Shown one piece after another: positions 1 to 54,208 of a DNA stretch of 64,000 nucleotides. Both the position numbers and the translations under genes were made by a program. The notes under the pieces are model-generated. The model was not told where the DNA came from, searched no databases, and saw only the letters and a program-made list of their open reading frames with translations. This DNA comes from Alphaproteobacteria bacterium. Lineage in GTDB: Bacteria; Pseudomonadota; Alphaproteobacteria; Rhodospirillales; WMHbin7. Every line of letters begins with the position of its first letter. Within the stretch, counting starts at the first letter, position 1. The DNA is taken from the NCBI GenBank assembly GCA_015231795.1, contig JADGAX010000003.1, forward strand, positions 186,001 to 250,000, in the 5' to 3' direction.

Positions 1-113
1 AACGTGAATGGGGACGTGTGATCCGCATGGAGCAAGACGTAATCGACCGGGTAAGCAAGCGTTGGGACGAATTGGGCCTGCCGGGGCTTGGGAAAGCGAT
101 TTGGAAGCCCTAA
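1..113 (+). CDS. C-terminal end of an unidentified protein
   Basis: An open frame enters from the left edge (codons in phase with position 3) and stops with TAA at 111-113. It gives about 36 residues with sensible alphaproteobacterial codon use, ending GLPGLGKAIWKP. The charged helix-like stretch RMEQDVIDRVSKRWDELG supports a real protein tail. It lies 70 bases upstream of pyrE on the same strand. I do not recognise the family, and the rest lies outside the window. Confidence 0.5.
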   Translation, partial: REWGRVIRMEQDVIDRVSKRWDELGLPGLGKAIWKP

Positions 114-183
114 GCCGCCTTGCATCCCGTCCCCGAATCGCTTTAAGACAGGGCAGCCCCACCCTTGATCGAGAGCTTTTCCC

Positions 184-876
184 ATGGCCGTTGTCGCCCG
201 CACCCCCGAACAGAAACAGGCTGGCCTGACCGTTGCCCGTATCCTGCTGGAGATCAAGGCGATCAATTTCCGCCCCGAGGACCCCTATAAGCTGACCAGC
301 GGCTGGGCCAGCCCGGTCTATATCGACTGCCGCAAGGTGATTTCCTATCCCTTGGCCCGGCGCAAGATCACCGAACTGGCCGCCGCCGCCGTCGAGCGCG
401 AAGTGGGTTTTGCTGGCCTTGAAGCGGTGGCGGGCGGCGAGACGGCGGGCATTCCTTATGCCGCATGGCTGGCCGACAAATTGAACCTGCCCATGCTGTA
501 TGTGCGCAAGAAGCCCAAAGGGTTCGGGCGCAACGCCCAGATCGAAGGCACGTTCGAGGAAGGTGACCGGGTGCTGCTGGTGGAAGATCTGGCTTCCGAC
601 GGCGCCAGCAAGGTCACTTTCTGCAAGGCCATCCGCGAGGCGGGCGGCAAGATCGACCATTCGCTAGTCGTGTTCTTCTATGGCGTCTTTCCCGGAGCGC
701 TCAAGAATCTCGAGGAGATGGGTCTTAACCTGCACTATCTCGCCAATTGGTGGGATGTGCTGGAAGTGGCCGAACACGCCCAGAGCTTCGACAAGAAGAC
801 GCTGGATCAGGTGCGCGCCTTCCTCTACGACCCGGTGGGCTGGTCAACCGCCCATGGCGGCAAGGGAAGCGATTAA
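184..876 (+). CDS. pyrE: Orotate phosphoribosyltransferase
   Basis: This 230-residue protein makes orotidine 5'-phosphate from orotate and PRPP, the fifth step of de novo UMP synthesis, in the cytoplasm. The PRPP-binding loop is seen as RVLLVEDLASDGASK around residue 125-140, the acidic variant common in alphaproteobacteria. The N-terminal part (YKLTSGWASPVYIDCRK) is the usual orotate-site region, and AVAGGETAGIPYA follows the family pattern. The length is normal. The ATG at 184 is preceded by GAGAG about 11 bases upstream. Its stop overlaps by 3-4 bases the stop of the convergent gene on the minus strand. Confidence 0.96.
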   Translation: MAVVARTPEQKQAGLTVARILLEIKAINFRPEDPYKLTSGWASPVYIDCRKVISYPLARRKITELAAAAVEREVGFAGLEAVAGGETAGIPYAAWLADKLNLPMLYVRKKPKGFGRNAQIEGTFEEGDRVLLVEDLASDGASKVTFCKAIREAGGKIDHSLVVFFYGVFPGALKNLEEMGLNLHYLANWWDVLEVAEHAQSFDKKTLDQVRAFLYDPVGWSTAHGGKGSD

Positions 877-1436
877 TTTTCCTTCTTTGGCGTCCAGCTA
901 AGCGCGTTGGCATCGCCCTGATTGCACATTTCGGCCAGGATGGCGGCCGACACGCGTTCCGGCATCACGCCGTTGATGGTGACAAGGCCTGAACGCGCCA
1001 AGCGCCAGCCTGCCGAGACGCAGGCCTTGTTGGGAATGCCCGCCACCGTCACCGAAGGCGGGCTGCCATGGTCGGAAAAAATCATGCCGCCAAAGACATT
1101 TGTCGCCGGGGCCGCCGAAATGGCCGTGTCCTCAATCTGCTGGACCAGGGCTTCGGGGGTCGGCTTGGCGGGGCCGCTGGAGCGCATTGCAAAGAAGACG
1201 CCGCCAATGCCCAGAATGGTCGCTGCCAGCAAAGTATAAACAAGCCAATGGCTTTTTTTCTTCACGGCCGGGGGATGGGGGTGCGCCTTGTGGGGCGGCT
1301 CGGCATGCGGATGCGCGGGTGGATGATGGGCCGCGGGATGTCCGGTGGGGTGCTGAGCGGTCGCGGGCCTGGGGGCGGGCTTTTGATGCCCCCTGGGGTC
1401 GGACTGCATATGGTGCAAGCTGGTCGTAACGGCCAT
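873..1436 (-). CDS. His/Pro-rich membrane-anchored protein with a pilin-like periplasmic domain
   Basis: 187 residues. Residues 1-60 are extremely rich in His, Pro and Ala (repeats such as HPPAHPHAEPPHKAHPHPP). One membrane segment follows at about 65-87 (WLVYTLLAATILGIGGVFFA). The remaining roughly 95 residues should be periplasmic, and contain VTVAGIPNKACVSAGW and a second Cys near the end (LAEMCNQG). A single TM followed by this compact two-Cys domain recalls PilS/type IV pilin-like proteins, but that is inference. The His-rich cytoplasmic arm could bind metal. It is monocistronic and convergent with pyrE, with an AT-rich intergenic region upstream (1437-1601). Confidence 0.7.
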   Translation of the reverse strand: MAVTTSLHHMQSDPRGHQKPAPRPATAQHPTGHPAAHHPPAHPHAEPPHKAHPHPPAVKKKSHWLVYTLLAATILGIGGVFFAMRSSGPAKPTPEALVQQIEDTAISAAPATNVFGGMIFSDHGSPPSVTVAGIPNKACVSAGWRLARSGLVTINGVMPERVSAAILAEMCNQGDANALSWTPKKEN

Positions 1437-1601
1437 GACACTCCCTCCTGGAGATCGTTAGCCTTTATATTCATTATATGATTGAAATTTACTTAATTCA
1501 ACCTTTCAAAAATAAATACTACACACAATTTTATGCAAATTAGATACAAATGCCGTTTCTTATTCTTTGCGTTAACATATATCAAGTAATTCGAAGAATG
1601 A

Positions 1602-1802
1602 TTACGTCACGTCGTCGTCATTCTTATTGTGGGTATTGGCGTCATTCAGTCGGCGTCGAACGCTTTCCGGCGCGTTCTTCTCGGGGCTGGCAAAGCGGAA
1701 GCGGCCATGCATGATGCAGCCTTTCATGCCCGGCGAACATTCCTTGCCTTTTACTTTGTCGCACATGCCCTTGGTTTCGTGCGGGCAACCCCAGCCGGAC
1801 AT
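1602..1802 (-). CDS. Small Cys-rich protein downstream of the HigBA pair
   Basis: 66 residues starting MSGWGCPHETKGMCDKVKG. Four cysteines are spaced C-x7-C-x7-C-x6-C in the first 30 residues, suggesting a small metal site or redox protein, and the tail is charged. The ATG at 1802 has a strong ribosome site (GAGGAG about 7 bases upstream). It lies 13 bases past the stop of the antitoxin gene, so the three genes probably form one operon. A longer in-frame reading to 1979 overlaps the antitoxin and has non-protein-like composition, so I rejected it. Function unknown. Confidence 0.65.
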   Translation of the reverse strand: MSGWGCPHETKGMCDKVKGKECSPGMKGCIMHGRFRFASPEKNAPESVRRRLNDANTHNKNDDDVT

Positions 1803-1815
1803 CTGATTTTGCTCC

Positions 1816-2133
1816 TCAAGCCAGATCGCCGATATTTGCGATGTGGACCGGATCGTGATCGGGAAAGCGGGCGACGATATCCAGCTCGCCGCCCATGCCT
1901 TCGATGACGCGACGCAATGTCGAAACCAGCATATCGGCCCGCCGCTCGATGCGCGAGATTTCGTCCTGCCCGACGCCAAGTTCCTTGGCCAGTTCGTCTT
2001 GTGTCAGCGACAAAGCCTTGCGGATTTCACGAAGCGAATATTCTTCCTCGATCAATCGGGCGGTTTCGCGCTTGATGGCTGCCTTGCGCTTGGGCGGCAA
2101 GGTGACCAAGACTTCGTTCAATGTCCGTCCCAT
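1816..2133 (-). CDS. XRE-family antitoxin (HigA-like)
   Basis: 105 residues with a helix-turn-helix at about 40-75 (SLTQDELAKELGVGQDEISRIERR), typical of XRE-type antitoxins. It follows the toxin gene with two bases between stop and start; toxin-first order is characteristic of higBA. The expected role is to neutralise the upstream toxin and repress the operon with it. The frame continues upstream but overlaps the toxin, so ATG at 2133 (MGRTLNEVLVTLP) is chosen. Confidence 0.88.
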   Translation of the reverse strand: MGRTLNEVLVTLPPKRKAAIKRETARLIEEEYSLREIRKALSLTQDELAKELGVGQDEISRIERRADMLVSTLRRVIEGMGGELDIVARFPDHDPVHIANIGDLA

Positions 2134-2135
2134 GG

Positions 2136-2495
2136 TTATTTGTCCTTTTTCAAACAGGCCAGATGGCGGTCGAAACGCATATCCGCCTTGGCGATCAGGT
2201 CGGCGTAAAATCGGCGTTCGTCGGCCCCTGCCTTGTCGCCCGCTACAAGCAGGATGGCTTCGCGCACAGGGTCGAAAGCGAAGGCGACTCGCCATACCCC
2301 GCCATCGGCGTCGAAGCGCAACTCCTTCATGTTGGCGTGGCGCGAGGCCTTCAACGTATCGACCCGAGGTCGTCCAAGCGAAGGCCCAAACTCTGCCAGA
2401 AGACCGAACACCGCCATGGCCTTGTCCTGCACGCCATCCGGCAGGGCCATCCATTCGGTTTCAAATTCGTCGGCAAAGCGAACCGTCCAGGGCAT
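2136..2495 (-). CDS. RelE/HigB-like toxin (phage Gp49-like)
   Basis: 119 residues beginning MPWTVRFADEFETEW. The family signature is the pattern around residues 45-80, LGRPRVDTLKASRHANMKELRF then GVWRVAFAFDP, found in HigB/Gp49-type mRNA interferases that cut mRNA on the ribosome. The gene is followed by an XRE antitoxin. No export signal. The start ATG at 2495 lies in an AT-richer intergenic region (2496-2665). Confidence is high for the family and lower for the exact target. Confidence 0.88.
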   Translation of the reverse strand: MPWTVRFADEFETEWMALPDGVQDKAMAVFGLLAEFGPSLGRPRVDTLKASRHANMKELRFDADGGVWRVAFAFDPVREAILLVAGDKAGADERRFYADLIAKADMRFDRHLACLKKDK

Positions 2496-2665
2496 GATGG
2501 ATTATGGCATTAAAGTCATATGGTGTCGAGGGCATTATTATTGTGAGGCGACATGTTGTGGATAAAATCTATCGTGCGCTATATTGCGTTTATCTCTCGC
2601 TTGATTTGCATTCGGACCCTATTATAACGGAGAAATATTTCAGCTTGAATTTTCCTGCTTAAACA

Positions 2666-3625
2666 ATGAGAGATCATACAATGGTATGCTCAATTCATTC
2701 GCTGAAAAGGCGATGCCAGATAGTTTGCGAGAACAAACCTCAGCTATCGACAAAAGATCAGCTGCGCGGTCTCTTGTTGATGCAAACAAGGCTAATCGAC
2801 TTGGCTTTGCATAAAATCACTTCTGTTGAAGGAGGTGGCTCTAAAGAGCTAACTAGCACAGTTCGCGTCGCGTCCATGTTGCTGCAAGCCATCGGCGTAT
2901 CCGTCCATAGCCTAGTGAAGTTAACCGCCACTCTTGACATGGGTATTCGCGACTGTTTTGGCATTGCGCGCTCAATCTCGGAGGGCTGTTTGAACATTGC
3001 ATACATCCTTGCAGAAGGAGAAGACGCCGCTAACAAGGCAATAAGACATGCTTTTCAGAAAAACTACCGTGACCTGAAACGAGAGGGTGAATTCGGTGGG
3101 TTCCGTTTCTTGGTTGGAGTTGCGGGTGAGATTCCAAGTCCTGCATCAGTTCCAGGCCTTGAGGATTCACTAAAAGAATTCAGTGACAAAAAAGGGAGGG
3201 GTAAAGGATGGACCGAGAAAAGTGTGGAGGATCGCCTAAGTTCTGTTCGCAACCGATTTGGGCGTAAGGGTATCGGTTTATTTGGTGCAGTTCTGTCGAT
3301 CTACCGTCACTCTTCTGAGATCCTCCATGGGTCTTTCTCAGGAGTAAGCTATTTTTGGACCGGTGGGGACTCGCTGCCAAAGAATAGGGAGGAGGTTGAT
3401 GCCTTATTTCTCAGTCACTTCATCTCTGTGTTTGGCGCCGCATTTTCTGCCATCAGCGATGTGCTTGATGTCATAGCTGCCGAGTATAACTTGCCTGAAC
3501 TGAAGCGAGCGAATGCTGAGCAGCTTAACCTCTTAGAAAATATCATCACAAGTGACGAATTAGACGCAGCCTTGTCTCGGAAAGGAAAGGCCTTACATCC
3601 TATAGCCAAGTTGGCATACAGCTAA
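2666..3625 (+). CDS. DUF5677-like protein of unknown function, probably acquired
   Basis: 319 residues, mostly helical, with the pattern around residues 90-115 (LDMGIRDCFGIARSISEGCLNIAYI) and a later YRHSSEILHG motif. Together these resemble the DUF5677 group of helical proteins often found in accessory and defence-type loci. Codon use and base composition are markedly more AT-rich than neighbouring genes, and there is no operon partner, so transfer is likely. The start is uncertain: ATG 2666 lacks a good ribosome site, while ATG 2681 has GAGAG about 8 bases upstream. No membrane segment or signal peptide. Confidence 0.65.
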   Translation: MRDHTMVCSIHSLKRRCQIVCENKPQLSTKDQLRGLLLMQTRLIDLALHKITSVEGGGSKELTSTVRVASMLLQAIGVSVHSLVKLTATLDMGIRDCFGIARSISEGCLNIAYILAEGEDAANKAIRHAFQKNYRDLKREGEFGGFRFLVGVAGEIPSPASVPGLEDSLKEFSDKKGRGKGWTEKSVEDRLSSVRNRFGRKGIGLFGAVLSIYRHSSEILHGSFSGVSYFWTGGDSLPKNREEVDALFLSHFISVFGAAFSAISDVLDVIAAEYNLPELKRANAEQLNLLENIITSDELDAALSRKGKALHPIAKLAYS

Positions 3626-3890
3626 CATCTACACAAGTTTCTCTGCAAGTAGCTTTTCGGAACTCATATATCTTGTATCAATATTAGAGCTTCCAGCCAG
3701 TACAGAAAGCATATGGTTAACCTATGGGGGCCAAATGAGAAATGTTGTTTTCAGTTTATGGCAGTCTGATCTTGATGCCGTAGAGCGCTGGAAGCTTCAG
3801 TCGCGACATCCACGCCTATCAGTAGAGTCAGGTCCTGAATTGTGAATTGAACAATATTTTGTCACTATCCAACGCTGTTCAGAAATATCT
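3626..3890. other. Intergenic region without a convincing gene
   Basis: About 265 AT-rich bases between the DUF5677-like gene and the end of aapP. A 36-codon frame (3735-3845, plus) exists but has no ribosome site and no recognisable composition. I see no clear hairpin with a T tract. Confidence 0.4.
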
Positions 3891-4631
<741 letters not shown>

Positions 4632-4636
4632 GCGTC

Positions 4637-5785
4637 TTATCTCCGGGTGCCTGCGTTCAGCCGCCGTTCCAGATACTGGCTGTAGCGCGACATGAAATAG
4701 CAGAACAGAAAATAGATGAAGGCGGCGAAGACGTAGCTTTCGATGTAGAAGGGCCGCCACAAAGGATCGGCCAGCGCCGTCTTGGCGGTGGTCAACAGGT
4801 CGTACAGCCCGATGATGATGACCAGCGACGTGTCCTTAAAGCAACTGATGAACTGATTGACGATGGGCGGAATCACCAGCCTTAGGGCTTGGGGCAGAAT
4901 GATCAGGCGCGTCTTTTGCCAATAGCCCAGGCCCAAGGCGTCGGCGGCTTCGTACTGGCCCTTGGGCAGGGCTTGCAGCCCGCCGCGCACCGCTTCGGCC
5001 AGATAGGCCGCCGTGAACAGCATGATGCCCAACTGCGCGCGCAGCAGCTTGTCGATGGTCAGCCCTTCGGGCAGGAACAGAGGAAACATGATCGAGGCCA
5101 TGAACAGCACCGACACCAGGGGCACGCCGCGCACGGTTTCGATATAGCCGATGCAGATGGCGCGGATGGCGGGCATGTCCGAACGCCGCCCCAGCGCCAG
5201 CAGCACGGCCAACGGAAAGGCCAGCACGATGCCCAGTGTCGCCAAAATCAGGGTCAGCGGCAGGCCGCCCCATTTGTCGTTGGGCACGAAGGTCAGGCCC
5301 AGCCAGCCGCCCCACATCAGCACGCCGCAAACCGGCAGGACGAGGCCCCATACGTAAAGGATTTTCACGTTCCACAGCCTGGGATCGCAAGAAGCGGCCA
5401 GGGCGGCAATGAACAATCCCATGGCCAGCAAGGGGCGCCAATGTTCATCGTAGGGATAAAGGCCAAACAGGATGAAGCGGTGCTTGACCTCGATGAAGGA
5501 CCAGCAAGCGCCGCCCGCGTCGCGGCAAGCCTGGGGATCGGCCCCCAGGAAAGTGGCTTTCAATAGCAGCCAATCAAGCAGCGGCGGCACGGTCCAGACC
5601 AAAACGGTTACCGAAAGAACGGTCAGAATCGTGTTGGGAATGTTGCTGAACAGATTGTCGCGCGCCCAGCCCAGGGCCGAAAAGGCGTTGCGCCGGTGGA
5701 TGTGCAACTCGGCCTGCGACGGCTCCTCGACATGCGAGGCGATTTCCGTGGCGGTTTTCGGATCATGGCTGGCAAGGTCGCTCAT
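4637..5785 (-). CDS. aapM: General amino-acid ABC transporter permease AapM
   Basis: 382 residues with several membrane segments. The permease (BPD_transp_1) domain is in the C-terminal half, and the EAA loop is seen as [24 protein letters not shown]. The N-terminal half has extra TMs and a periplasmic loop with Cys ([13 protein letters not shown]), normal for AapM/BztC. It pairs with AapQ to form the inner-membrane channel. Its start overlaps the aapQ stop by 4 bases, implying translational coupling. Confidence 0.94.
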
Positions 5786-6951
5786 CTGCCCACCAGCGCG
5801 GTTTTCTTGTCGTACCAGCTCATGAAGGCCGAGATGGCCAGCGACACCGCCAGATAGACGGCCATCAGAAGGGCGACCCCCTCGATCGCTTGGCCGGTCT
5901 GGTTGATGGTGGTGTTGGAAACGCTGACCAGATCGGGATAGCCGATGGCGACCGCCAGCGAGGAATTCTTGGTCAGGTTCAGATATTGGCTGGTCAGCGG
6001 CGGGATGATGACCCGCAAGGCCTGCGGCATCACGACAAGGCGCAGCACTTGGCCGCGCTTCAATCCCAGGGCCAGCGCGGCCTCGGTCTGGCCCGGCGCC
6101 ACCGCCAGAATGCCCGAACGCACGATCTCGGCGATGAACGAGGCCGTGTACAGGGTCAGCCCGGTCAAAAGGGCCACGAATTCCGGGCTGACCGAATGGC
6201 CGCCCTCGAAATTGAAGCCCTGCAATTCGGGCGCGTTCATCTGCGTGGGCGCGCCCAGGGCTATCCAGGCCAGCAGAGGCAGGCCAAGGATCAAACCGAT
6301 GCCCGCCCGGATGGTGGGAAAGATTTTACCGGTCAGGGCTTGGCGGCGCTTGGCCCAGCGGACCAGCAAAAAGGTACCAGCCATGCCCAGGAACAGGGCG
6401 GCCAGCACCAGCCATTCCACGCCGCCCCAGTCGGGGGTGGGGAACTTCAAGCCGCGATTGGACAGGTAGACGTCGGGCAATGGATTAAGGGCTTGGTTCG
6501 GCCCCGGCAATCCTTCGGTGATCAGCGCGTACCAGAACAACAATTGCAGCAGCACGGGAATGTTGCGCAGCGTTTCGACATAGAAGCTGGCCAAGCGGGC
6601 CACCAGCCAGTTGCCGGAAAGTCTGGCGACGCCGATCACCGTGCCGATCATGGTGGAGAGAATCACGCCCAGCACGGCCACGATCACGGTATTGAGCAGG
6701 CCGACCAGAATGGCCTTGGCGTAGCTGTCGGCAGGGTCGAAAGGAATGGGGCTTTCGCCGATGGCGAAACCCGACTCGCGGGTCAGGAAGCCGAAGCCGG
6801 TGGCGATGTTGCGCGCCGCCAGATTGTCCAGGGTGTTGGAGATCAGATACCAAGCGGCCAGCACCACGGCGCCCACGACCAGAATCTGGTACAGGATGGC
6901 GCGAATGGCCCGGTCGTTCCACCAGGGCGTTTTAGGGGCGTCTTGGCTCAT
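5782..6951 (-). CDS. aapQ: General amino-acid ABC transporter permease AapQ
   Basis: About 389 residues with multiple TMs and an EAA-type loop (TEAALALGLKRGQVLRLVVMPQALR) near residue 300. The large insert between the early TMs and the C-terminal permease core is usual for AapQ/BztB. ATG at 6951 (MSQDAPKTPW) is preferred over an in-frame TTG two codons upstream. A terminator-like hairpin lies between this gene and aapJ, so its level is probably lower than that of the binding protein. Confidence 0.94.
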   Translation of the reverse strand: MSQDAPKTPWWNDRAIRAILYQILVVGAVVLAAWYLISNTLDNLAARNIATGFGFLTRESGFAIGESPIPFDPADSYAKAILVGLLNTVIVAVLGVILSTMIGTVIGVARLSGNWLVARLASFYVETLRNIPVLLQLLFWYALITEGLPGPNQALNPLPDVYLSNRGLKFPTPDWGGVEWLVLAALFLGMAGTFLLVRWAKRRQALTGKIFPTIRAGIGLILGLPLLAWIALGAPTQMNAPELQGFNFEGGHSVSPEFVALLTGLTLYTASFIAEIVRSGILAVAPGQTEAALALGLKRGQVLRLVVMPQALRVIIPPLTSQYLNLTKNSSLAVAIGYPDLVSVSNTTINQTGQAIEGVALLMAVYLAVSLAISAFMSWYDKKTALVGR

Positions 6952-30183: not shown

Positions 30184-30271
30184 GCCCGCTTGGTGGAATG
30201 GTAGACACAACAGACTTAAAATCTGTCGGAGGGCAACCTCCGTGCCGGTTCAAGTCCGGCAGCGGGCACCA
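30184..30271 (+). tRNA. tRNA-Leu(TAA), intact, with encoded CCA
   Basis: The acceptor stem GCCCGCT pairs with AGCGGGC. The anticodon arm ACAGA-CTTAAAA-TCTGT gives anticodon TAA. A long variable arm (CGGAGGGCAACCTCCG) marks a class II tRNA, and the T arm GCCGG-TTCAAGT-CCGGC is perfect. Ends ACCA. Its 3' two thirds are repeated at 46058 and 54330, making it the integration target of the elements to the right. Confidence 0.97.
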
Positions 30272-30279
30272 AATATCAA
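30214..30279 (+). repeat. attL: 3' part of tRNA-Leu plus adjacent bases (copy 1)
   Basis: 66 bases running from the anticodon loop to just past CCA are identical to 46058-46123, and the first 59 also match 54330-54388. This is the standard footprint of a tRNA-targeting tyrosine integrase. This copy keeps the working tRNA. Confidence 0.95.
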
Positions 30280-30335
30280 GGACTTAGCAGAATTTACGAA
30301 TTAGATTTCCTTATGCGTCATCTGAAAATTAAGAA

Positions 30336-37661: not shown

Positions 37662-38252
37662 ATGCAGCATACCAAACAGTCCCTTGCGGCCCATGCCCCC
37701 TATCCCGGCTTTCAGTTGCACATCGATATCATGGCCGTGCCGGACGAAAGCAAGCATTTGATCAGGCCGCAACGTTATCAGATAACGGCTATTGATATCG
37801 CAACCCAGATTCGTTTTCTTGGTCTCTGCCGTAGCCTGACTGCGACAAGTGCCGTGAGATTTCTAAGAAAGGCGCTTTCTTTTTTCGCCAAGCTTGGCAT
37901 TTGCGTACAAAGCGTTCGCACCCCCAATCACGCCATGTTCCTGAAAACGGATTTAAGACGGGGAAAAAAGGTTTGCCACCTTCACCCCTTCACACGCTTT
38001 TGCCGCAAACGCGGGATCATCCATGTTTTGAACAGGCATGATCTGCGATGGCACAATTGCTTTGTCGAGCAAAGCCGACAAATCGACGAAGAGGAATTCT
38101 ACCGCTTTTGGAATCCGGGCAGATTGAGCGACAAGGCATTGGCTGCCAAGTTGCAGATTTGGCAGTACAGATACAATTGCTTTAGGCTTCATCCCTGCTG
38201 CAATTACGAGCCGCCATTGAAGAGGTATTTGTCTTTGAATAAAGCGGACTGA
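37662..38252 (+). CDS. Stand-alone, degenerate rve/DDE transposase-like protein
   Basis: 196 residues aligning in layout with the integrase catalytic core of IS481-type transposases: FQLHIDIMAVPD (first Asp), RYQITAIDIATQIRF, HPFTRFCRKRGIIH, and FVEQSRQIDEEEFYRFW (Glu). The segment that normally reads T-D-N-G is TPNH here, so the second catalytic Asp is missing. There is no N-terminal DNA-binding domain and no terminal repeats were found nearby. It is either a decayed transposase core or a domesticated protein. Intact frame with AT-richer codons. Confidence 0.65.
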   Translation: MQHTKQSLAAHAPYPGFQLHIDIMAVPDESKHLIRPQRYQITAIDIATQIRFLGLCRSLTATSAVRFLRKALSFFAKLGICVQSVRTPNHAMFLKTDLRRGKKVCHLHPFTRFCRKRGIIHVLNRHDLRWHNCFVEQSRQIDEEEFYRFWNPGRLSDKALAAKLQIWQYRYNCFRLHPCCNYEPPLKRYLSLNKAD

Positions 38253-38267
38253 AAATAAGATGGTGGG

Positions 38268-40274
38268 TTATTTGTTGTGCACCAAAAAGGCGTTACCACC
38301 CTCGCGGACGAAGAAAGTGCGATTGCCAGAAACGGCAAAATTATATAGCTGCGTCTCAGGCGATGCAGATTGCGCCTGAATGGTTTCGATCCGTGTTTCG
38401 CCACTGTCTGAAATAATAAAGTCGCCAACTTGAAGCGGGCCAAGCACAAGGCCGGGATTCGTCTGTTCCGCCAGCCCCACATCAAAGGCTTTCCAGCCTT
38501 CCTTCGTCATGAAGGGATGGCCGCCAGTTACGAAGTGGCGCGAGCCGTTGATGGAATAGAGGTGCTGGCTGCCAAGCATCGGGCGATGCAGAACCTCGAC
38601 TTGGTTGATTTGTCCGTCAGCACCTTTCAGCCATTCGCCAACTGAGATTTCCTCAATCGTTTTTTCTGAACCGTCGTCCATCAGAACTTTTGTTCCGGCG
38701 ATGAAGCAGCAACCAAGCCCCATGGTAAGGTGTGTAGGCACCTCACCCAGGGAAACGTTGTCCTGATAGACCCGGATGGACCCCATACAAGTCTGACTCA
38801 GATCAACCCTGATTTCATTGGAGGTGACTGAGACAGTTAGGCGTGTATCAGGCCAAGTGGTGTTGATTGCGTAGAAAGTAGATGCACTTGCATTTGAAAT
38901 GCTGGTTGCTGTCGCCCAAAGCTGATTTGCCAGTTTTGTTCCGACCGATGCTGACAATGTAAGACCTACAATGACAGCCTTACTCGATCCATTTCTCACC
39001 TCGCTATTCTTCTGTGCCGTCACTTGCCTCTGCAAATCCTGTGTGCGCTTGATGGCCTGCTGCACCTGCAAGGGCTGCTGGGCAACGGAAGCCGGGCTTA
39101 ATTGCAGCGAGGCGGACGTACGCTGCCCGTCGGCAGGCCGGATGGTTTCACTGCCGGTTGGCGGCAGGAATCCCATGCGCATCAAGCTGTTTTCGGCGCG
39201 AGAAAATTGCTCGGACATGCCAGCCCCACGATCCGATGCAGCGAACGACAGGGGGGCATTGCCGTTGGCAACACTTAGGGTGCTGGCACGCTGCTTTTCT
39301 TTGTCGGTCCACAAATCGGACATGCGCCATGCGGCAAGAACGGTTGTTTGCTGGTCGCTGGTATGGCGCACACTGAAGGACAATGATCCAAGTTCAGCTG
39401 CAGCCGTTCCCCCCACGACGCCTTGCGTATCGCCGTCGCCGCCAGCCCCCACCAGCCAGTGGATCGGATTCTTGAAATAGTCGCTTCCCATGAAGGCGAT
39501 GCCAAGTCCACCGTTTCCGACGATTTTGTTTTGGGTGGTGTTATCAACATGGTGATAATGGGCTGTGTTGACCCCAGCCCCTACCGAGACAGGCAAATAC
39601 TCGCCGAAAACCGACGGCGTTACGGCGCGGAGTGACAGGTCCAGCGCGTTGGTTCTGGGCGAACCTTCCGTGCCCTGCCTGACCAACGGGTTGTGCGTAT
39701 AGGCCGCCGTGCCGGACAGTGCAGAGACATTGTTCAAAAGCGTTTGCAGACCGGTACGAAGACCGGGCGGCAAATCGCCACTGGGCGATTGCCTGCCATC
39801 GCTCCGTTTGAACCAATTCAGGTAGGTCGTATAACCCCAGACTTGCCGATTCCCTTCCGTGTAGAAGTTCTCCTCACGGGTGACGTACTCGCCCAAGGTG
39901 AAGGAAGACAGCGGATCGAGGTTGGGCAGCACGAACTGATATTGGCCGTAGAACTCGCTGGCTCGTTCGTTGGTCAGGATGCCCCCGCCGATGGCTTGGC
40001 TTTTCTCTTCGTCCAGGGTGGCCCCAAAGCTCATGCCGCCTCGGGATTTATACCGATTATCCCACTTGCCCCGGACTGAGATGTTGGCGTTATCGAAGCC
40101 AAGGCTTCTGTCTTGGGGTTCCTCGCTATCCTGGCTGTCGTTCAACCCCCGAAAGACCCCATCGGACCTTCCCAGGACGGGCAGTGCTTCACCCGCAATT
40201 CCCCAACGCCCGGTGGACAACACCAGGGCAAGCGCGGTACTTGCGATTAATGCGCTGCGAAGACCGGACGGCAC
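38268..40274 (-). CDS. Exported beta-rich surface protein with C-terminal Hint (intein-like) domain
   Basis: About 668 residues. Signal peptide at the N-terminus (ASTALALVLSTGRWGIAG). Residues about 65-420 are beta-rich, with alternating aromatic and Gly patterns (WDNRYKSRGGMSFGATLDEEK, YTTYLNWFKR, LSLRAVTPSVFGEYLPVSVG), suggesting an outer-membrane or surface barrel or sandwich. A helical linker follows, then a Hint domain of about 147 residues starting CCFIAGTKVLMDDG, with HPFMT in the middle and ending FLVHNK. The end lacks a +1 nucleophile, so cleavage and not splicing is expected. GTG 40274 is set by GGGGG 8 bases upstream. Paralogue of 49601-51337. Confidence 0.85.
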   Translation of the reverse strand: MPSGLRSALIASTALALVLSTGRWGIAGEALPVLGRSDGVFRGLNDSQDSEEPQDRSLGFDNANISVRGKWDNRYKSRGGMSFGATLDEEKSQAIGGGILTNERASEFYGQYQFVLPNLDPLSSFTLGEYVTREENFYTEGNRQVWGYTTYLNWFKRSDGRQSPSGDLPPGLRTGLQTLLNNVSALSGTAAYTHNPLVRQGTEGSPRTNALDLSLRAVTPSVFGEYLPVSVGAGVNTAHYHHVDNTTQNKIVGNGGLGIAFMGSDYFKNPIHWLVGAGGDGDTQGVVGGTAAAELGSLSFSVRHTSDQQTTVLAAWRMSDLWTDKEKQRASTLSVANGNAPLSFAASDRGAGMSEQFSRAENSLMRMGFLPPTGSETIRPADGQRTSASLQLSPASVAQQPLQVQQAIKRTQDLQRQVTAQKNSEVRNGSSKAVIVGLTLSASVGTKLANQLWATATSISNASASTFYAINTTWPDTRLTVSVTSNEIRVDLSQTCMGSIRVYQDNVSLGEVPTHLTMGLGCCFIAGTKVLMDDGSEKTIEEISVGEWLKGADGQINQVEVLHRPMLGSQHLYSINGSRHFVTGGHPFMTKEGWKAFDVGLAEQTNPGLVLGPLQVGDFIISDSGETRIETIQAQSASPETQLYNFAVSGNRTFFVREGGNAFLVHNK

Positions 40275-40342
40275 TAACAAGACCCCCTTGATAAGCTTAT
40301 CGTGTCAATAACATGAGGGGGGATGCCGGGCAACGACAAAAC

Positions 40343-44650: not shown

Positions 44651-45904
44651 CTACCCTTGCTTCCTGAGCGGCACCACCGGGCTTTCGGATTTTCCAAGTC
44701 CCTTGGCAAATGCCGTCAACTGATCGGCCAAGGCTCGGGCCTGATCCTTATCGCCGTGAATATAGTTCATATAGGCCGCATGCGATTTGTGGCCGGTCAA
44801 GGCCATGCCGACACGCGGATTGCTGACGGCATTGGCCGTCATGGTGGCGAACCAATGGCGGATGGTGTGAAGCGAACAGTTGGGAACGCCAGCCAATTGG
44901 CGAATGCGCCGGAAAGCGCCTTCTACCGTGTCATAGCTCAGGGCTTCCGTTGGGTCGCTTGCTGCCCTAAAGACATGCGGCACCCCTGGCATACGTTCCA
45001 AGCTTTCAAATACGGCCAAGGTTTCTGCCGACAAGGGACGGCGCGAAAAGCCCGTCTTGGTGTCGGGTAAATGCGCTTCCATTTCTTCGGGTCTGATATG
45101 GCCCCATTGCAGGGAGAGCAATTCACTGATGCGCCAGCCGGTAAAGATGGCTGCCTTGAAGATGGCCGTTACCTGGGGAAGCTCAGAGCCTTTCTTTTCC
45201 GCCTGTTCCAAAGCCTTCATCAACGCCCCGATTTCCCCGGCAGTCAAAAGCCGTTCACGGCGCGGCACTTTGGGTTCGGCGATATTCTCAAGCGGGTTTC
45301 CCATTTCCTTGGGGCGCAAGTGCCAAGCCAGGGCCTTGCTGAACAGGTGATGCAATAGACGGTACAGATTTCCAGCTTCCGCCTTGCCGCCGATCACCTT
45401 GCCGTCCTTGTCCAGCCTCAGAGGTGAGCGGACCACGCTGCCCGCGTCTTCCTCGGTTACGTCCTTGAGCTTGAGTGCGCCGATGGCAGGCATAACGCGC
45501 TTTTCCCAAAGGCGGGTTTTCTCGGCAATCGTGCGCGGCTTGTTTTCAAGCGCCATGACTTCCTTGGCGTAACGGTTCCACAAATCGGCAACCGTCCTTT
45601 CTTGGCGCGCCCGGCTGGTCTCTTCCTCAATGGCTTTCGTCTTGGCTTTGAGGTTGGCTTCGCGTTTGTCGCGCAAGGTGGCTTCGCCCTTGCCGGTGCG
45701 TTTGGTTTCGCGCAGCTTCGCCAGTTCCTCTTGCGCCTTGGCAACCGTCCAGCCATCGGACGCCCAGCCCAAAGCCTCTTCCACGCGCCTGCCGTTCACG
45801 TAAAAACGGAGCGTGAAATAGCGGTCAGGGCGAATGCCATGCTTGCGGGTTTCGTGTTCCCTGTACCGGATTCCCGGCACAACAGACTTCCATGAAACTG
45901 CCAT
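44651..45904 (-). CDS. Tyrosine integrase of element 1
   Basis: 417 residues. An Arm/SAM-like N-terminal region (YFTLRFYVNGRRVEEALGW) resembles DUF4102-type P4 integrases. The catalytic domain has WRISELLSLQW (Arg I), HTIRHWFAT (His-x-x-Arg) and the box-II end GHKSHAAYMNYIH (Tyr nucleophile). It recombines att sites in tRNA-Leu. Located at the right end, adjacent to the 46058 att copy, with the element's arm repeat 15 bases from the start. Confidence 0.93.
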   Translation of the reverse strand: MAVSWKSVVPGIRYREHETRKHGIRPDRYFTLRFYVNGRRVEEALGWASDGWTVAKAQEELAKLRETKRTGKGEATLRDKREANLKAKTKAIEEETSRARQERTVADLWNRYAKEVMALENKPRTIAEKTRLWEKRVMPAIGALKLKDVTEEDAGSVVRSPLRLDKDGKVIGGKAEAGNLYRLLHHLFSKALAWHLRPKEMGNPLENIAEPKVPRRERLLTAGEIGALMKALEQAEKKGSELPQVTAIFKAAIFTGWRISELLSLQWGHIRPEEMEAHLPDTKTGFSRRPLSAETLAVFESLERMPGVPHVFRAASDPTEALSYDTVEGAFRRIRQLAGVPNCSLHTIRHWFATMTANAVSNPRVGMALTGHKSHAAYMNYIHGDKDQARALADQLTAFAKGLGKSESPVVPLRKQG

Positions 45905-46057: not shown

Positions 46058-46123
46058 ACTTAAAATCTGTCGGAGGGCAACCTCCGTGCCGGTTCAAGTC
46101 CGGCAGCGGGCACCAAATATCAA
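46058..46123 (+). repeat. Internal att (copy 2): junction of elements 1 and 2
   Basis: 66 bases identical to 30214-30279, without the 5' part of the tRNA, so not a working tRNA. It is the right end of element 1 and the left end of element 2. The bases beyond (AAGGCTTAGCT versus GGACTTAGCA) still resemble each other, suggesting related element ends. Confidence 0.93.
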
Positions 46124-46154
46124 AGGCTTAGCTCATATGGTGGCGGCCCAACTA

Positions 46155-49600: not shown

Positions 49601-51337
49601 TTATTGGACGTTTATACGTACAGTGACACTCGCACTACCAGATTTATTAGTAGCCGTAACAGTGAAATTATAAGCAATACCAGCTTCACCACCACCAGGA
49701 GTACCTATAATTGTACCATTAGCATTCACCGTCAAGGTTGCCGATGGAGCGCCACCACCTAGGACATCTACAGCACCGGAGTAGGTACATTCAGCGCAAT
49801 CAAAAAATTGTGAGACATCCCAACTAGACGCTTGGCCTCCTACAAAATCTGTATTATTCCATGGCGTCTGCGCTACCAGCGCCCTAGGCGGACACATTTC
49901 TTTGCCACACTTGGCATTCAGCAATTCTGTATTCTTCTTGTCCCGCGCTTCCTTTGTCAGTTCTTGCGAGCGCTTCAGCGATTCCTGAACCGCGCGGGGT
50001 TGTTCGGCCACACCCCCTGGCGTTAGGCGCATACCGGCCTTGGCGGCGGCTGGCGATGTGGGTTTGGCGGTTTCCCCACCCGTGGGCGGCAGGAAACCCA
50101 GGCGGCCCAAAGCGCTTTCGGCTTCCCGCATGCGGTCTTCCGACGAGGCCACGGGCTGGGAGGCGAAATTCAAAGGCCCGTTTCCGTTGGCGACACTTAA
50201 GGTGCTGGCCCGTTGTTTCTGATCCTCGGTCCACAGGTCAGAAACCCGCCAGGACGCCAGCAGGGTTTGTTCCTTGTGGCTGGTCTGGCGATAGCTGAGC
50301 GACAACGGCCCCGCCTCGGCAGCCGCCGTGCCGCCAACCACGCCACGCGTATCAACATCACCGCCCATGCCGACCAGCCAGCGCATCGAATGGCCAAAAT
50401 AATCGCCGCCCAAAAAGGCCACGCCCAAGCCGCCATTGCCCACGGCCTTCCATTGGGTCGTGTTATCGACATGGTCGTAATGGGCGATGTTGACGCCGGT
50501 TCCCACCGACACCGGCAGATAGGTACCCAGGATGCTGGGGGTGACGGCACGCAGGCTTAGATCGGTCGCATTGCTGCGCGGGCTTCCTTGAAAGCCCGAG
50601 CGTTCCATCGGGCTGAAGCCATAGCTGGCCGTGCCCGACAGCGAGGAAACATTGTCCATCAATGTTTGCAACGGGGCGGCCAAGGATGGCGGCAAGGATG
50701 CGTTCACACCCTGGCGGCCCGGGTTGCGCTTGAACCAATTGAGATAGGTGGTGTAGGTGCGGACCTGACGGTTATCGAGCAGATAATATTCTGTGCCCTG
50801 CGATACATGCTCGCCCAGGGTGAAGCTGGACCAGGGGTCAAGTTCCGGCACGACGAATTGGAATTGGCCATAGCCTTCCTGGGCGCGATGATTGGTTAGG
50901 AACCCGGCGCCAATGGCGTAATGCTTCTCTTCGTCCAGCACCGCGCCCAGCGTAAAGCCGCCCCGGGTTTTGTATTTGTTGTCCCATTTCATCTTGGCGC
51001 TGAAATCGGACAATTCGATACCCATCGACGCGTTCTGGCCCCATTCGCTGCCCGTTTGATCGGGCAAGGATGGATTTAGCGAAGCCCGGAATGGTCCCGC
51101 CGTGTAATTCAGGCCAGATGGCGATGGCTGCGAAGTTCGAAGAACGGTATCGGCAAGAGAAGATCGAGTGGGGGTATTTAGCTTGGACAGGTCGTCGTCA
51201 GCCAGGGCATCAATGCCGGGAGCGAAAAGGGCAAGACCGGAGGCGACCAGAACCGCAGCCCGGGCGGCAGCGTTGTCGTAGCCAGGCCGCTGACTGGCCT
51301 TCACCTTATCCAACAATGACGACCAAAGCTGAGCCAT
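49601..51337 (-). CDS. Surface protein paralogue with Ig/cadherin-like C-terminus
   Basis: 578 residues. Hydrophobic export segment at about 27-45 (AVLVASGLALFAPGIDALA), then a beta-rich region (about 80-440) closely similar along its length to the Hint protein at 38268-40274: shared blocks YTTYLNWFKR, LSLRAVTPS, YLPVSVG, HVDNTTQ, QRASTLSVANGN, LGFLPPTG. After a helical linker the C-terminus differs: TLTVNANGTIIGTPGGGEAG then YNFTVTATNKSGSASVTV resembles a He_PIG (cadherin/Ig-like) domain. Start ATG shares a base with the stop of the upstream membrane-protein gene (TAATG). Confidence 0.85.
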   Translation of the reverse strand: MAQLWSSLLDKVKASQRPGYDNAAARAAVLVASGLALFAPGIDALADDDLSKLNTPTRSSLADTVLRTSQPSPSGLNYTAGPFRASLNPSLPDQTGSEWGQNASMGIELSDFSAKMKWDNKYKTRGGFTLGAVLDEEKHYAIGAGFLTNHRAQEGYGQFQFVVPELDPWSSFTLGEHVSQGTEYYLLDNRQVRTYTTYLNWFKRNPGRQGVNASLPPSLAAPLQTLMDNVSSLSGTASYGFSPMERSGFQGSPRSNATDLSLRAVTPSILGTYLPVSVGTGVNIAHYDHVDNTTQWKAVGNGGLGVAFLGGDYFGHSMRWLVGMGGDVDTRGVVGGTAAAEAGPLSLSYRQTSHKEQTLLASWRVSDLWTEDQKQRASTLSVANGNGPLNFASQPVASSEDRMREAESALGRLGFLPPTGGETAKPTSPAAAKAGMRLTPGGVAEQPRAVQESLKRSQELTKEARDKKNTELLNAKCGKEMCPPRALVAQTPWNNTDFVGGQASSWDVSQFFDCAECTYSGAVDVLGGGAPSATLTVNANGTIIGTPGGGEAGIAYNFTVTATNKSGSASVTVRINVQ

Positions 51338-52206
51338 TAGCCACCAGCGCCTTTCTCAGGCAGCTTCTTGACCTTCAGCCAGATGTAGTAGGTGTCATCG
51401 CGGGAACTGGCAGGAACGTCCTTGTCATTAACCTCAAGCACCTGAACGCGCCCGCCCTGCTTGACGAAGTCAATGATTTCTCCGCGCGTCCATTTGCCTT
51501 CTCCAATGGGGATTGGCTTTCTGGTGCGCATATTCAAATCTTCTGTGGGGGAAATTATTTCCCCAGAGACTGGCATCTTCTCCATTTTAAAGAGAGGAGA
51601 AGTAACCGTAGCTCCCTTCTTTATTCCGAAATATACCCAGCCTTCAGCAACGATGGGCGCATCTTCGCGCGAAATCGTTGACTCAGAATATGACTTAATT
51701 TCTGAAAGCGGCGTGCTCTGAATAACAGAAAGATTGTATCTTGCAGCGTTTAAGCGCTCAACAAGCCTAGCTATTTCAGCTGTTGCCGTGTCGTTAAATG
51801 GGGTTTGCTTTGTATCCTTTATGGACGGGTCTTTTTCATTGAGTTCAGCTTTAATTCCCCGTTCAACAATTATTGCATTCTCTAGAAGCACGCTGCGTGT
51901 ATTCACGTCGTCGTAAACCGCTGGTGCCTTAAAATAAGCAATTAATGCAGCAAGCAAAAGAATCTGAACATGAAAAAAATGGTGAAATAAATACACAGAT
52001 TCCTTAAAATATTTAACAGAGTATTTGTTGTCTTCGCGCGTTTTGTACGTAAAAAAGACTAAGCCGAAGAAAACATATGCAATAAGAATAGCAATCCAGT
52101 AATTGCGGATAATTTCAATGGATACTAGACGCAAAGGGGGCACCAGCACAATTGCAGCAATTGCGCAGAATGCAGTCAGTGCAAACAGGCACCTCCTCAA
52201 GCTCAC
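51337..52206 (-). CDS. Three-TM membrane protein coupled to the surface protein
   Basis: About 289 residues if started at GTG 52206. Membrane segments at about 5-28, 37-54 and 75-92, then a soluble, beta-rich C-terminal region (EGWVYFGIKKGATVTSPLF; DDTYYIWLKVKKLP). Translation is coupled to the surface-protein gene. The start is unusual: a run of eight G (minus strand) sits one base before the GTG, and an internal AGGAGG lies at codons 4-5, so a later CTG cannot be excluded. AT-rich in its middle. No family recognised. Confidence 0.68.
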   Translation of the reverse strand: MSLRRCLFALTAFCAIAAIVLVPPLRLVSIEIIRNYWIAILIAYVFFGLVFFTYKTREDNKYSVKYFKESVYLFHHFFHVQILLLAALIAYFKAPAVYDDVNTRSVLLENAIIVERGIKAELNEKDPSIKDTKQTPFNDTATAEIARLVERLNAARYNLSVIQSTPLSEIKSYSESTISREDAPIVAEGWVYFGIKKGATVTSPLFKMEKMPVSGEIISPTEDLNMRTRKPIPIGEGKWTRGEIIDFVKQGGRVQVLEVNDKDVPASSRDDTYYIWLKVKKLPEKGAGG

Positions 52207-52696: not shown

Positions 52697-52983
52697 GGGT
52701 CTTCTGGTCGGATCAGTCTCGCTTTGATGTCGAGCGCGTCCGGGCCTATCTCTTCGAGAAAAATCCCCTGGCGGCCATTGCCGTTTCCGAAACGCTGTTT
52801 CAGGCGGGCAACAGCTTATCAAGCTTGCCACGCCGCTATGCTGAACGTGACGGCGGCTACCGGGAGATGGTGGTGTCGCGTTATCACTACATCATACGCT
52901 ACGAAATCCTACCCGATCCCGACCATGCCAAGCGCCAAGCCGTGCTGATTCTTTCCGTCTGGCATCCGGCGCAGGATCGTTAG
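52693..52983 (+). CDS. ParE/RelE-family toxin
   Basis: 96 residues: FWSDQSRFDVERVRAYL, then SLPRRYAERDGGYREMVVSRYHYIIRYEI and ILSVWHPAQDR fit the ParE/RelE fold. Coupled to the antitoxin upstream and overlapping by 4 bases the convergent integrase stop. Confidence 0.9.
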   Translation: MRVFWSDQSRFDVERVRAYLFEKNPLAAIAVSETLFQAGNSLSSLPRRYAERDGGYREMVVSRYHYIIRYEILPDPDHAKRQAVLILSVWHPAQDR

Positions 52984-54146
52984 GCGTTTTGCCCCATCGC
53001 CTTCGCAATCTCGCCGCCCACCAAATTCGCCGCCTCGCGCAACGGGTTCGAGGCGAAGTGGGCATAGCGGTTGGTGGTCTGCATGGCCGTATGGCCGAGA
53101 AGTGCGCCCGTCACCGGCAGGCTTTGCCCGCCCATTACTGCCCAGGATGCGAAGGTGTGGCGCAAATCATGAAGCCGCACCTCTTTGAACCCCAGGGCAG
53201 CGCGGACCACCTTCCAGCACTGATACAGCGCGTCCCCCTTCATCGGAAGTTCGCTGTCATGCCGGGACGGCAGCATCCAGTCGCTTTCCTTCTTCAGCCC
53301 CTTGATCACGTCCAAAGCAGGGTGGCTAAGATAGATCGTCTTGGCCCCGGTCTTGGAATCGGCTAAGCGAAGCGTGCCAGCCTCGGCATTCAATCCATCC
53401 CAGCGAAAACCGCACACTTCGGATAGGCGGCAGCCGGTCATCAACAACAGTCTGATTCCGGCAATCATGGTGGGATGCAGGATCGCGTTGCTCTTTGCCT
53501 CGGTCAGATAAGCGCCCAGGTTGGAAAGCTCATCGGCGCTCAGGAAGCGTTCTCGCTTTTGCTCCTTGTTCTTCTTGATATGCCGGCAGGGGTTGGTATC
53601 GAGGGCGCGGATTTCCCAGGCCTCGGCAAGGTTGAACATTTTGCTGAGCAGGGCCAAGGCGCGGTTCGCCTCGTAGGGCGTATTGCGCATCTCGTTTTGC
53701 AGTTTCAAAATATCCGCTCGAGTGATCTGTTCAACCTTCAAGCTGCCCATGGCAGGGTTAATGCGATTGTCGATCAGGCGGCGATCCTGGCTGGCGCTGC
53801 GGGGCTTCTTATGCACCAGCGCATGTTCTTCCATATAGCGCTCGCACAGCTTGGCGACGGACAGCGAATGACGCTCACGCTCTCGCAACTCGACAGGGTC
53901 TTCGCCCTTCTGCACTTCGGCCAGTCGCAGCTTGGCTTCCTTGCGCGCTTCCTCGGGCGTCAACACGCCATGTCGGCCAATCGTGAGGCGGCGGGATCGG
54001 CCCTGACGGTTGCGGTATTGGATGACAAAGCTGCGCACCCCCGAGGGCTTCACGCGCAACCCAAATCCCGGCAGCAGATCATCCCAGGCGAAAACATCGC
54101 TATTGCCCGCCGGGACGGTTTCGATGCTGCGAATAGTCAGGCGCAT
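52980..54146 (-). CDS. Tyrosine integrase of element 2
   Basis: 388 residues from MRLTIRSIETVPAGNSD. N-terminal arm-binding DUF4102-type part (FVIQYRNRQGRSRRLTIGRHG), catalytic residues in MTGCRLSEVCGFRW (Arg), LHDLRHTFASW (His, Arg) and LGHTAMQTTNRYAH (His, Tyr). Differs from the element-1 integrase although both use the same tRNA. The start has GGATCG-type purines upstream; a longer frame to 54200 is not favoured. Confidence 0.93.
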   Translation of the reverse strand: MRLTIRSIETVPAGNSDVFAWDDLLPGFGLRVKPSGVRSFVIQYRNRQGRSRRLTIGRHGVLTPEEARKEAKLRLAEVQKGEDPVELRERERHSLSVAKLCERYMEEHALVHKKPRSASQDRRLIDNRINPAMGSLKVEQITRADILKLQNEMRNTPYEANRALALLSKMFNLAEAWEIRALDTNPCRHIKKNKEQKRERFLSADELSNLGAYLTEAKSNAILHPTMIAGIRLLLMTGCRLSEVCGFRWDGLNAEAGTLRLADSKTGAKTIYLSHPALDVIKGLKKESDWMLPSRHDSELPMKGDALYQCWKVVRAALGFKEVRLHDLRHTFASWAVMGGQSLPVTGALLGHTAMQTTNRYAHFASNPLREAANLVGGEIAKAMGQNA

Positions 54147-54180
54147 AGGGCGATCCTTGATTTTCCCAAGCCGCTTTCCG

Positions 54181-54208
54181 GGTAAGCAGGAGGTAAGCAC
54201 GGGTAAGC
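54181..54208 (+). repeat. Right arm-type repeats of element 2
   Basis: GGTAAGC at 54181, 54192 and 54202, just upstream of the integrase gene. The first two match the left-end pair with identical spacing. Confidence 0.8.

Follow-up and report, generated by a model that had tools for sequence, protein, structure and literature searches.

A C-terminal BIL-type Hint module with a frequently basic +1 residue in a probable bacterial outer-membrane protein and in phage virion proteins

Two papers (PMC7765530, PMC7664689) characterize A-type BIL domains by a cysteine at their first position (Cys1), a conserved His-Asn (HN) and the lack of a nucleophile at the residue that follows (+1); according to PMC7664689, cleavage products predominate when a BIL domain has no nucleophile at +1. 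BIL2 of the Tetrahymena thermophila protein BUBL1, according to PMC8616854, forms an isopeptide bond with a lysine side chain and attaches the ubiquitin-like domain on its N-terminal side to other proteins. The domain investigated here resembles the A type: it has the Hint fold, Cys525 and His588, the pair H668-N669 and a non-nucleophilic +1 residue, Lys670, and it sits in the variable part of a non-conserved bacterial protein, five of the six genes for the preceding trunk being without it. It differs from the A type in that a basic +1 residue is frequent and part of the module, and in its place at the very end of a protein or in head-to-tail arrays with one-residue spacers. The PT-HINT domains of polymorphic toxins and the MafB/CDI BIL domains we take to be Hint domains of secreted proteins, as is the case here; unlike these, the Hint studied has neither a toxin nor any other domain behind it, only a stop codon. 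We did not find the terminal or phage-array form with a lysine at +1 in the open PMC literature, and as far as our searches show, a clade that mostly ends in Lys/Arg and is found both in exported proteins of bacteria and in virion arrays of phages is new.

The Hint gene is a minus-strand reading frame of 670 codons (38268..40280) in the window, by which we mean the entire 64,000-nucleotide stretch that was analysed. It encodes a signal-like N-terminus, a beta-rich trunk, a helical linker and the C-terminal Hint domain. Judged by eye, the likeliest start codon is GTG at 40274 or TTG at 40280, behind AAGGGGG; a search for a sigma-70-like promoter found none. The last 147 residues run from CCFIAGTKV to FLVHNK and are followed by the stop codon; C524 to K670 and the stop occupy 38268-38711, which leaves the first coordinate of the preliminary description (38268-38712) in place and shortens its span by one base. 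The module proper, C525-K670 (146 residues; 38271..38708, minus strand), is recognized by Pfam Hom_end_hint at residues 525-578 (E 8.3e-10; 39.5 bits against a cut-off of 32.1), and Vint, Hint and Hint_2 also match, below their Pfam cut-offs. Our profile A2, built from nine domains of our choice and containing the +1 column, finds BIL domains in the PDB at 7.4e-14 and 1e-12. In the AlphaFold model, residues 521-670 reach mean pLDDT values of 84-98 in blocks of ten residues, the trunk being modelled poorly, and VIA-align recovers a BIL/intein fold. The preliminary assignment of a Hint/BIL domain to the C-terminal end is confirmed by these four lines of evidence, which rule out a chance or mis-framed reading frame. 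PF07591 gave no match in the six-frame genome search (E 0.001) or in the scan of the Hint protein; it does match the genome's tandem-Hint protein L004 (29.3 bits against a cut-off of 27.7).

In the VIA-align superposition C525 coincides with the first residue of inteins and N669 with their last. The catalytic N-terminal cysteine proposed earlier is thus present, although it is the second and not the first of the Cys-Cys pair. Cys525 (38706..38708, minus strand) is the predicted nucleophile of an N-S acyl shift, with C524 as the -1 residue. Block B, T585-x-x-H588, lies at 38517..38528, and the penultimate His668 and terminal Asn669, likewise correctly named beforehand, at 38274..38279, all on the minus strand. 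The statement that no extein follows is nearly but not exactly true, because K670, the sole C-terminal flank, stands between N669 and the stop codon (38271..38273, minus strand).

The nearest solved fold is that of BIL2 (6Y75: Z 19.6, 139 residues aligned, rmsd 2.2, 25% identity; second structure 6TMM: Z 19.0; identities 25-26%), which also gives the best match of the sequence profile to the PDB (7.4e-14). BIL2 lies in a eukaryotic polyprotein between ubiquitin-like domains, whereas the window Hint is bacterial and comes last in its chain, after a probable outer-membrane barrel. The Clostridium thermocellum BIL domain (2LWY) reaches Z 17.4 and is tied with inteins (gp41-1, 16.9). The class 1 inteins gp41-1, DnaB and RecA have the same fold (Z about 15-17) and the same catalytic residues. 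In contrast to an intein, the window Hint has Lys670 in place of Cys, Ser or Thr at +1, and it is not flanked by N- and C-exteins: the stop codon comes after one residue, and the paralogues have other C-termini and not an uninterrupted form of the protein. The Vint structure 8r2c is more distant (Z 10.3).

Described Hint chemistry (PMC8616854, PMC7664689) is the basis for the steps that we propose. The peptide bond between C524 and C525 would be converted to a thioester on C525, aided by T585 and H588 of block B; Asn669, aided by His668, would cyclise and free Lys670; and water or an amine would resolve the thioester, which would sever the trunk from the Hint. With water as the acceptor, C524 would be the free end of the trunk; with the released Lys670 the trunk would gain a C-terminal lysine in what amounts to one-residue splicing, and with another amine it would become conjugated. 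We regard it as probable, from sequence and model, that this BIL-type Hint module of 146 residues removes itself from the trunk; that it does so with an amine as the acceptor is doubtful. The fold, the active-site residues, their conservation and the frequent Lys/Arg at +1 are seen in the sequence and the model, and we infer each chemical step, the acceptor, the compartment (periplasm or cell surface) and the purpose, which may be trimming after export or assembly. The same module, usually with its basic residue, would act on other bacterial proteins and, arrayed, on phage virion proteins. Self-removal is worth annotating, since it would make the mature protein about 16 kDa (146 residues) lighter than its precursor.

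Conservation was counted over domains that start at model position 4 or earlier and reach at least position 140. The 152 full-length domains reduce to 109 representatives at 70% identity, 104 of them with HN; the position filter dropped three domains of at least 60 bits (L091, L043, L093). Left out as the window copy or as duplicates of the window or L004 were L001, L005, L006, L008, L024, L026, L032, L078, L080 and L086, and L031, L079, L087, L089 and L090 were also kept out of the counts. Close representatives are those of at least 80 bits (57; 41 viral and 16 cellular), and distant ones are those with HN and below 60 bits (28). Cys1 occurs in 57/57 close representatives, the scan pattern having required Cys1, but not HN, in the viral rows. 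HN is present in 56 of these 57, the exception being L039; the alignment for the +1 counts holds only the 104 HN domains and shows HN as complete by construction, so that 56/57 is the fair count. The block-B His is kept in 56/56 close representatives aligned, and Cys1, the block-B His and HN are invariant in the nine domains of profile A2. Homologues lacking the Cys and HN, which the preliminary description had named as evidence that would speak against it, are thus nearly absent from the close clade, an outcome that for the most part favours the description.

An alternative explanation is that the Hint is a structural or binding domain used for display, its catalysis being absent or irrelevant. 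Up to seven copies in a row on phage proteins are what display repeats would look like, and terminal HN has been lost in some Hints: in the tail-fibre protein of phage JWF and in 5/109 representatives, all cellular (L039 of the close set and the more distant L017, L016, L063 and L041). However, the close representatives with HN share a mean pairwise identity of 38%, and active-site residues that are almost invariant at such divergence argue against an idle domain. We consider the display explanation improbable.

Among the 56 close representatives with HN the +1 residue is Lys in 42, Arg in five and Cys, Ser or Thr in one; in the 28 distant representatives Lys/Arg occurs six times and Cys, Ser or Thr 12 times. 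The difference in Lys/Arg, 47/56 against 6/28, has a Fisher p of 3.2e-8, not corrected for descent. A basic residue stands at +1 or +2 in 53/56: six phage representatives have Ala or Ile at +1 and Lys at +2, and L009 (Cys), L010 (Tyr) and L007 (Val) have neither. The preference holds whatever follows the domain, with 13 Lys among 14 terminal Hints, 15 Lys and two Arg among 17 followed by another Hint, and 14 Lys and three Arg among 25 followed by something else. In the ranking of columns by conservation among close relatives, whose rows are related and not independent, +1 is 39th of 143. At most ten residues follow HN in 24/109 representatives, and 21 of those 24 have Lys at +1; the raw comparison with the other representatives (21/24 against 17/52, Fisher 1.4e-5) would link terminal position to lysine, a link that disappears with tree-aware independent pairs (median p 1) and that we do not claim. 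We therefore regard Lys/Arg at +1 as a clade-wide trait, part of which shared descent could explain. A clade that has kept its active site and a mostly basic +1 residue, be it before a stop codon, the next Hint or another domain, bears on the question of why BIL domains persist.

These counts leave the earlier view, that the domain cleaves but apparently cannot splice, half supported: the window Hint has no Cys, Ser or Thr at +1, yet the residue there is usually an amine, and one-residue splicing by aminolysis may occur. Lys670, or a lysine of a partner protein, may be the programmed acyl acceptor, so that splicing or conjugation would proceed by aminolysis and without ATP. The products would be trunk-Lys or an isopeptide bond to a surface protein and, in the phage arrays, a short lysine tract or virion cross-links. 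The basic residue at +1 in 47/56 and at +1 or +2 in 53/56 close representatives with HN fits this explanation, as do the inter-Hint linkers, 46/48 of which begin with Lys/Arg and 19 of which consist of that residue alone, and the isopeptide bond to lysine described for the nearest solved relative, BIL2 (PMC8616854). The six phage representatives with the lysine displaced to +2 and the three with a basic residue at neither position fit it less well, and a lysine at +1 could instead block splicing or stabilise the C-terminus. We hold a programmed lysine acceptor to be unlikely. The wider proposal, in which the 'Lys+1' Hint clade would serve cell surfaces and virions as a ligation module that needs no ATP, we also rate as unlikely, and slightly more so. 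Each Hint would then activate the carboxyl end before it as a thioester and pass it to a lysine amine, its own or a partner's; a terminal copy would yield trunk-Lys or cross-linked surface proteins, and the single-lysine phage arrays would yield a lysine tract or covalently stapled virion proteins. If lysine does take the acyl group, bacteria and phages would own a self-contained, ATP-free means of tagging or cross-linking extracellular proteins, which could also find use as a ligation tool; if it does not, the domain would be a C-terminal module that surface and virion proteins carry and that removes itself.

The arrays were found on viral contigs, where the profile scan recovered 152 relatives among 168 candidates, 80 of which entered the viral analysis. 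Among these 80 of 152 relatives, 31 of 66 distinct viral reading frames, some of them near-copies, carry at least two Hints: two in 22, three in five, four in two, five in one and seven in one. With near-copies included, 48 inter-Hint linkers were counted; Lys/Arg comes first in 46, and the 19 single-residue linkers comprise 17 Lys and two Arg. The virion-type proteins of L115, L118, L122, L114 and L120 have up to seven head-to-tail Hints with mostly single-lysine spacers. In L118, L120 and L122 the array precedes a DPLAQ-like motif of VrlC-type proteins. Named phage records matched the window Hint (10 records), one L115 Hint (5) and one L165 Hint (19), all at below 60% identity, and no array was seen in those matched records.

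Pfam scans of three phage proteins found DUF4815 in two, L118 and L147, and these two also match phrog_358. Behind its array, L118 matches 1265 named phage records, among them one with the annotation VrlC. In 11 viral loci a Hint stands just before the motif DP[LV]xQ[ST]F, and in 8/11 only Lys/Arg lies between; the pattern used for this junction count asked for HN and then K or R, and no locus with another residue before the motif was seen in the locus table. Nine named phages read over about 130-500 residues upstream of the motif, and Hint-less within that stretch, have Y, Y, W, V, Y, V, D, R and V at that place (1/9 basic). Since the basic residue is found before the motif mostly only where there is a Hint (8/11 against 1/9), it seems from these sequences to come with the Hint. 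By eye, the VrlC-type protein of L147 is apparently split over two reading frames (1-3432 and 3461-5878): the first ends Hint-Lys-stop, and the next appears to continue the protein. Also by eye, L013-L017 and L200 1577-3028 (Achromobacter phage JWF, where the Hint protein is annotated as tail-fibre-like) have a Cys-rich stretch before a CFPA-type Hint without terminal His-Asn.

Relatives of the Hint also occur in bacteria. With the own genome counted each time, they occur in 16/150 genomes, in 36/385 genomes of the class sample and, at E 1e-5, in 18/398 genomes of the phylum sample. A further protein of the own genome has a tandem pair of Hints (...VHNK-GGAGGG-C... and ...VHNK-stop), and the window Hint pairs with the first of the two in the quick tree (98*). 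The second Hint of that pair (C12 protein; L004 2041-2613) has an insertion of about 38 residues, NPLPRGEGG...NPSPRGRG, that resembles an in-frame genomic repeat. FecR is present in 5/10 relatives chosen for a scan, several FecR proteins having the Hint at their very end, and several relatives have Gly/Ser/Pro-rich flexible linkers before Cys1 (by eye). In Aeromonas caviae (locus L081) 35 residues without annotation follow a close Hint. The 1.8-Mb genome G273 of the class has eight Hint matches (L042, L092-L095, L100, L101), and in L042 and L092 a D-rich stretch, LDGDGIEL-like by eye, follows the Hint. The quick tree comprises 77 domains, with 34/74 inner branches poorly supported, and requires a minimum of eight changes in Lys/Arg, 15 in terminal position and nine in bacterial or viral origin, at least three of the latter being forced by well-supported branches. 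These changes of origin suggest that the module has moved between phage and bacterial proteins.

The terminal place of the window Hint is shared with the Hog/Hint domain of Hedgehog (1AT0, Z 14.3), as are the fold and Cys1. The preliminary description had compared the expected cleavage with Hedgehog-type processing, for which we find no specific evidence. Such processing would transfer the trunk to a non-protein nucleophile, for example a lipid, LPS or a peptidoglycan amine, and thereby anchor it; a terminal Hint with nothing behind it is compatible with this. On the other hand, the window Hint keeps its terminal HN, unlike Hedgehog, and has no room for a sterol-recognition region, because the chain ends at K670, one residue after the Hint; Hedgehog also lies five Z units below BIL2, and a trunk that is itself a membrane barrel would presumably need no further anchor. 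Hedgehog-type transfer therefore appears quite improbable.

The Hint gene appears to be part of mobile DNA. A tRNA-Leu gene at 30184-30271 overlaps an attachment-site-like repeat of 75 bp (30214..30288, plus strand), which is 97% identical to a repeat at 46058..46132 (plus strand); roughly 60 bp of the repeat are found once more from 54329 onwards. We read window positions 30184-54390 as two elements integrated in tandem at tRNA-Leu, the first repeat being the left end of element A and the second its right end and the left end of element B. Close to the right end of each element lies a gene for a tyrosine integrase (A: 44651..45904, minus strand, Phage_integrase 1.5e-18; B: 52980..54200, minus strand, 4.2e-21). 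Element A contains the Hint gene, a Rep3 initiator, a TraG/HerA-like ATPase and a MazF-like toxin; element B contains a Hint-less trunk paralogue, so that each element carries one member of the barrel family. For the genome's third trunk paralogue, a serine recombinase is encoded at a distance of about 2 kb.

About 15 bp separate the end of a transposase fragment (37662-38252) from the stop codon of the Hint gene, and related Hints occur in toxin-type and helicase/terminase proteins. Both observations would fit a remnant of a polymorphic toxin or an intein whose C-terminal part was lost, for example through this transposase. However, the same end recurs in relatives, at most ten residues following HN in 24 of the 109 representatives and 21 of those 24 having Lys at +1, which makes this end the family's own and not a break. 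Truncation by the adjacent transposase is rejected on this ground, and a remnant of any such origin is very improbable.

The trunk that a self-removing module would release spans residues 51 to 323 approximately (39312..40130, minus strand). Two paralogues in the same genome are 56-58% identical over residues 45 to 478 or so, and neither has a Hint; the one on element B (49601..51337, minus strand; 58% identity) has an Ig-like C-terminal end (He_PIG 9.2e-07). In all, the family has six genes in 3/199 genomes searched, the own genome included; the congener G003 contributes two of them, and G163, from another genus of the same order, contributes one that is divided between two frames. Only 1/6 trunk genes carries a Hint, and the other five have different C-termini, which makes the Hint an add-on; two Hint-less genes end in the Pfam Ig-like domain He_PIG, and the third one scanned gave no Pfam match. 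The class sample yielded 2/385 genomes, the own one and one weak match (E 0.003), in which a search for one motif gave nothing; named phages gave no match to the trunk, and a trunk-plus-Hint query against plasmids matched in the Hint region only, among the best 20 of 49 records.

Two AlphaFold predictions of the trunk, both of low confidence (mean pLDDT 44.7 in one of them), show about 15 predicted strands and then helices. Outer-membrane beta-barrels make up most of the 50 best structural matches to this low-confidence model, PirA for example with Z 16.4, rmsd 4.0, 249 residues aligned and 7% identity. The trunk, previously called beta-rich in a description that the low-confidence model fits, is from these models and its paralogues probably an outer-membrane barrel with a C-terminal extension. 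Inverse autotransporters consist of an outer-membrane barrel and then a surface Ig-like passenger. The barrel-like matches of the low-confidence model and the Ig-like tails of two paralogues recall this layout; the trunk is without a Pfam match, and intimin and invasin barrels are not among its 50 best structural matches, an absence that excludes nothing. Membrane-protein-like genes of similar layout, possible partners, adjoin three barrel genes by eye: window 51337-52206 (no Pfam match), L002 496-1305 and L084 7461-8267.
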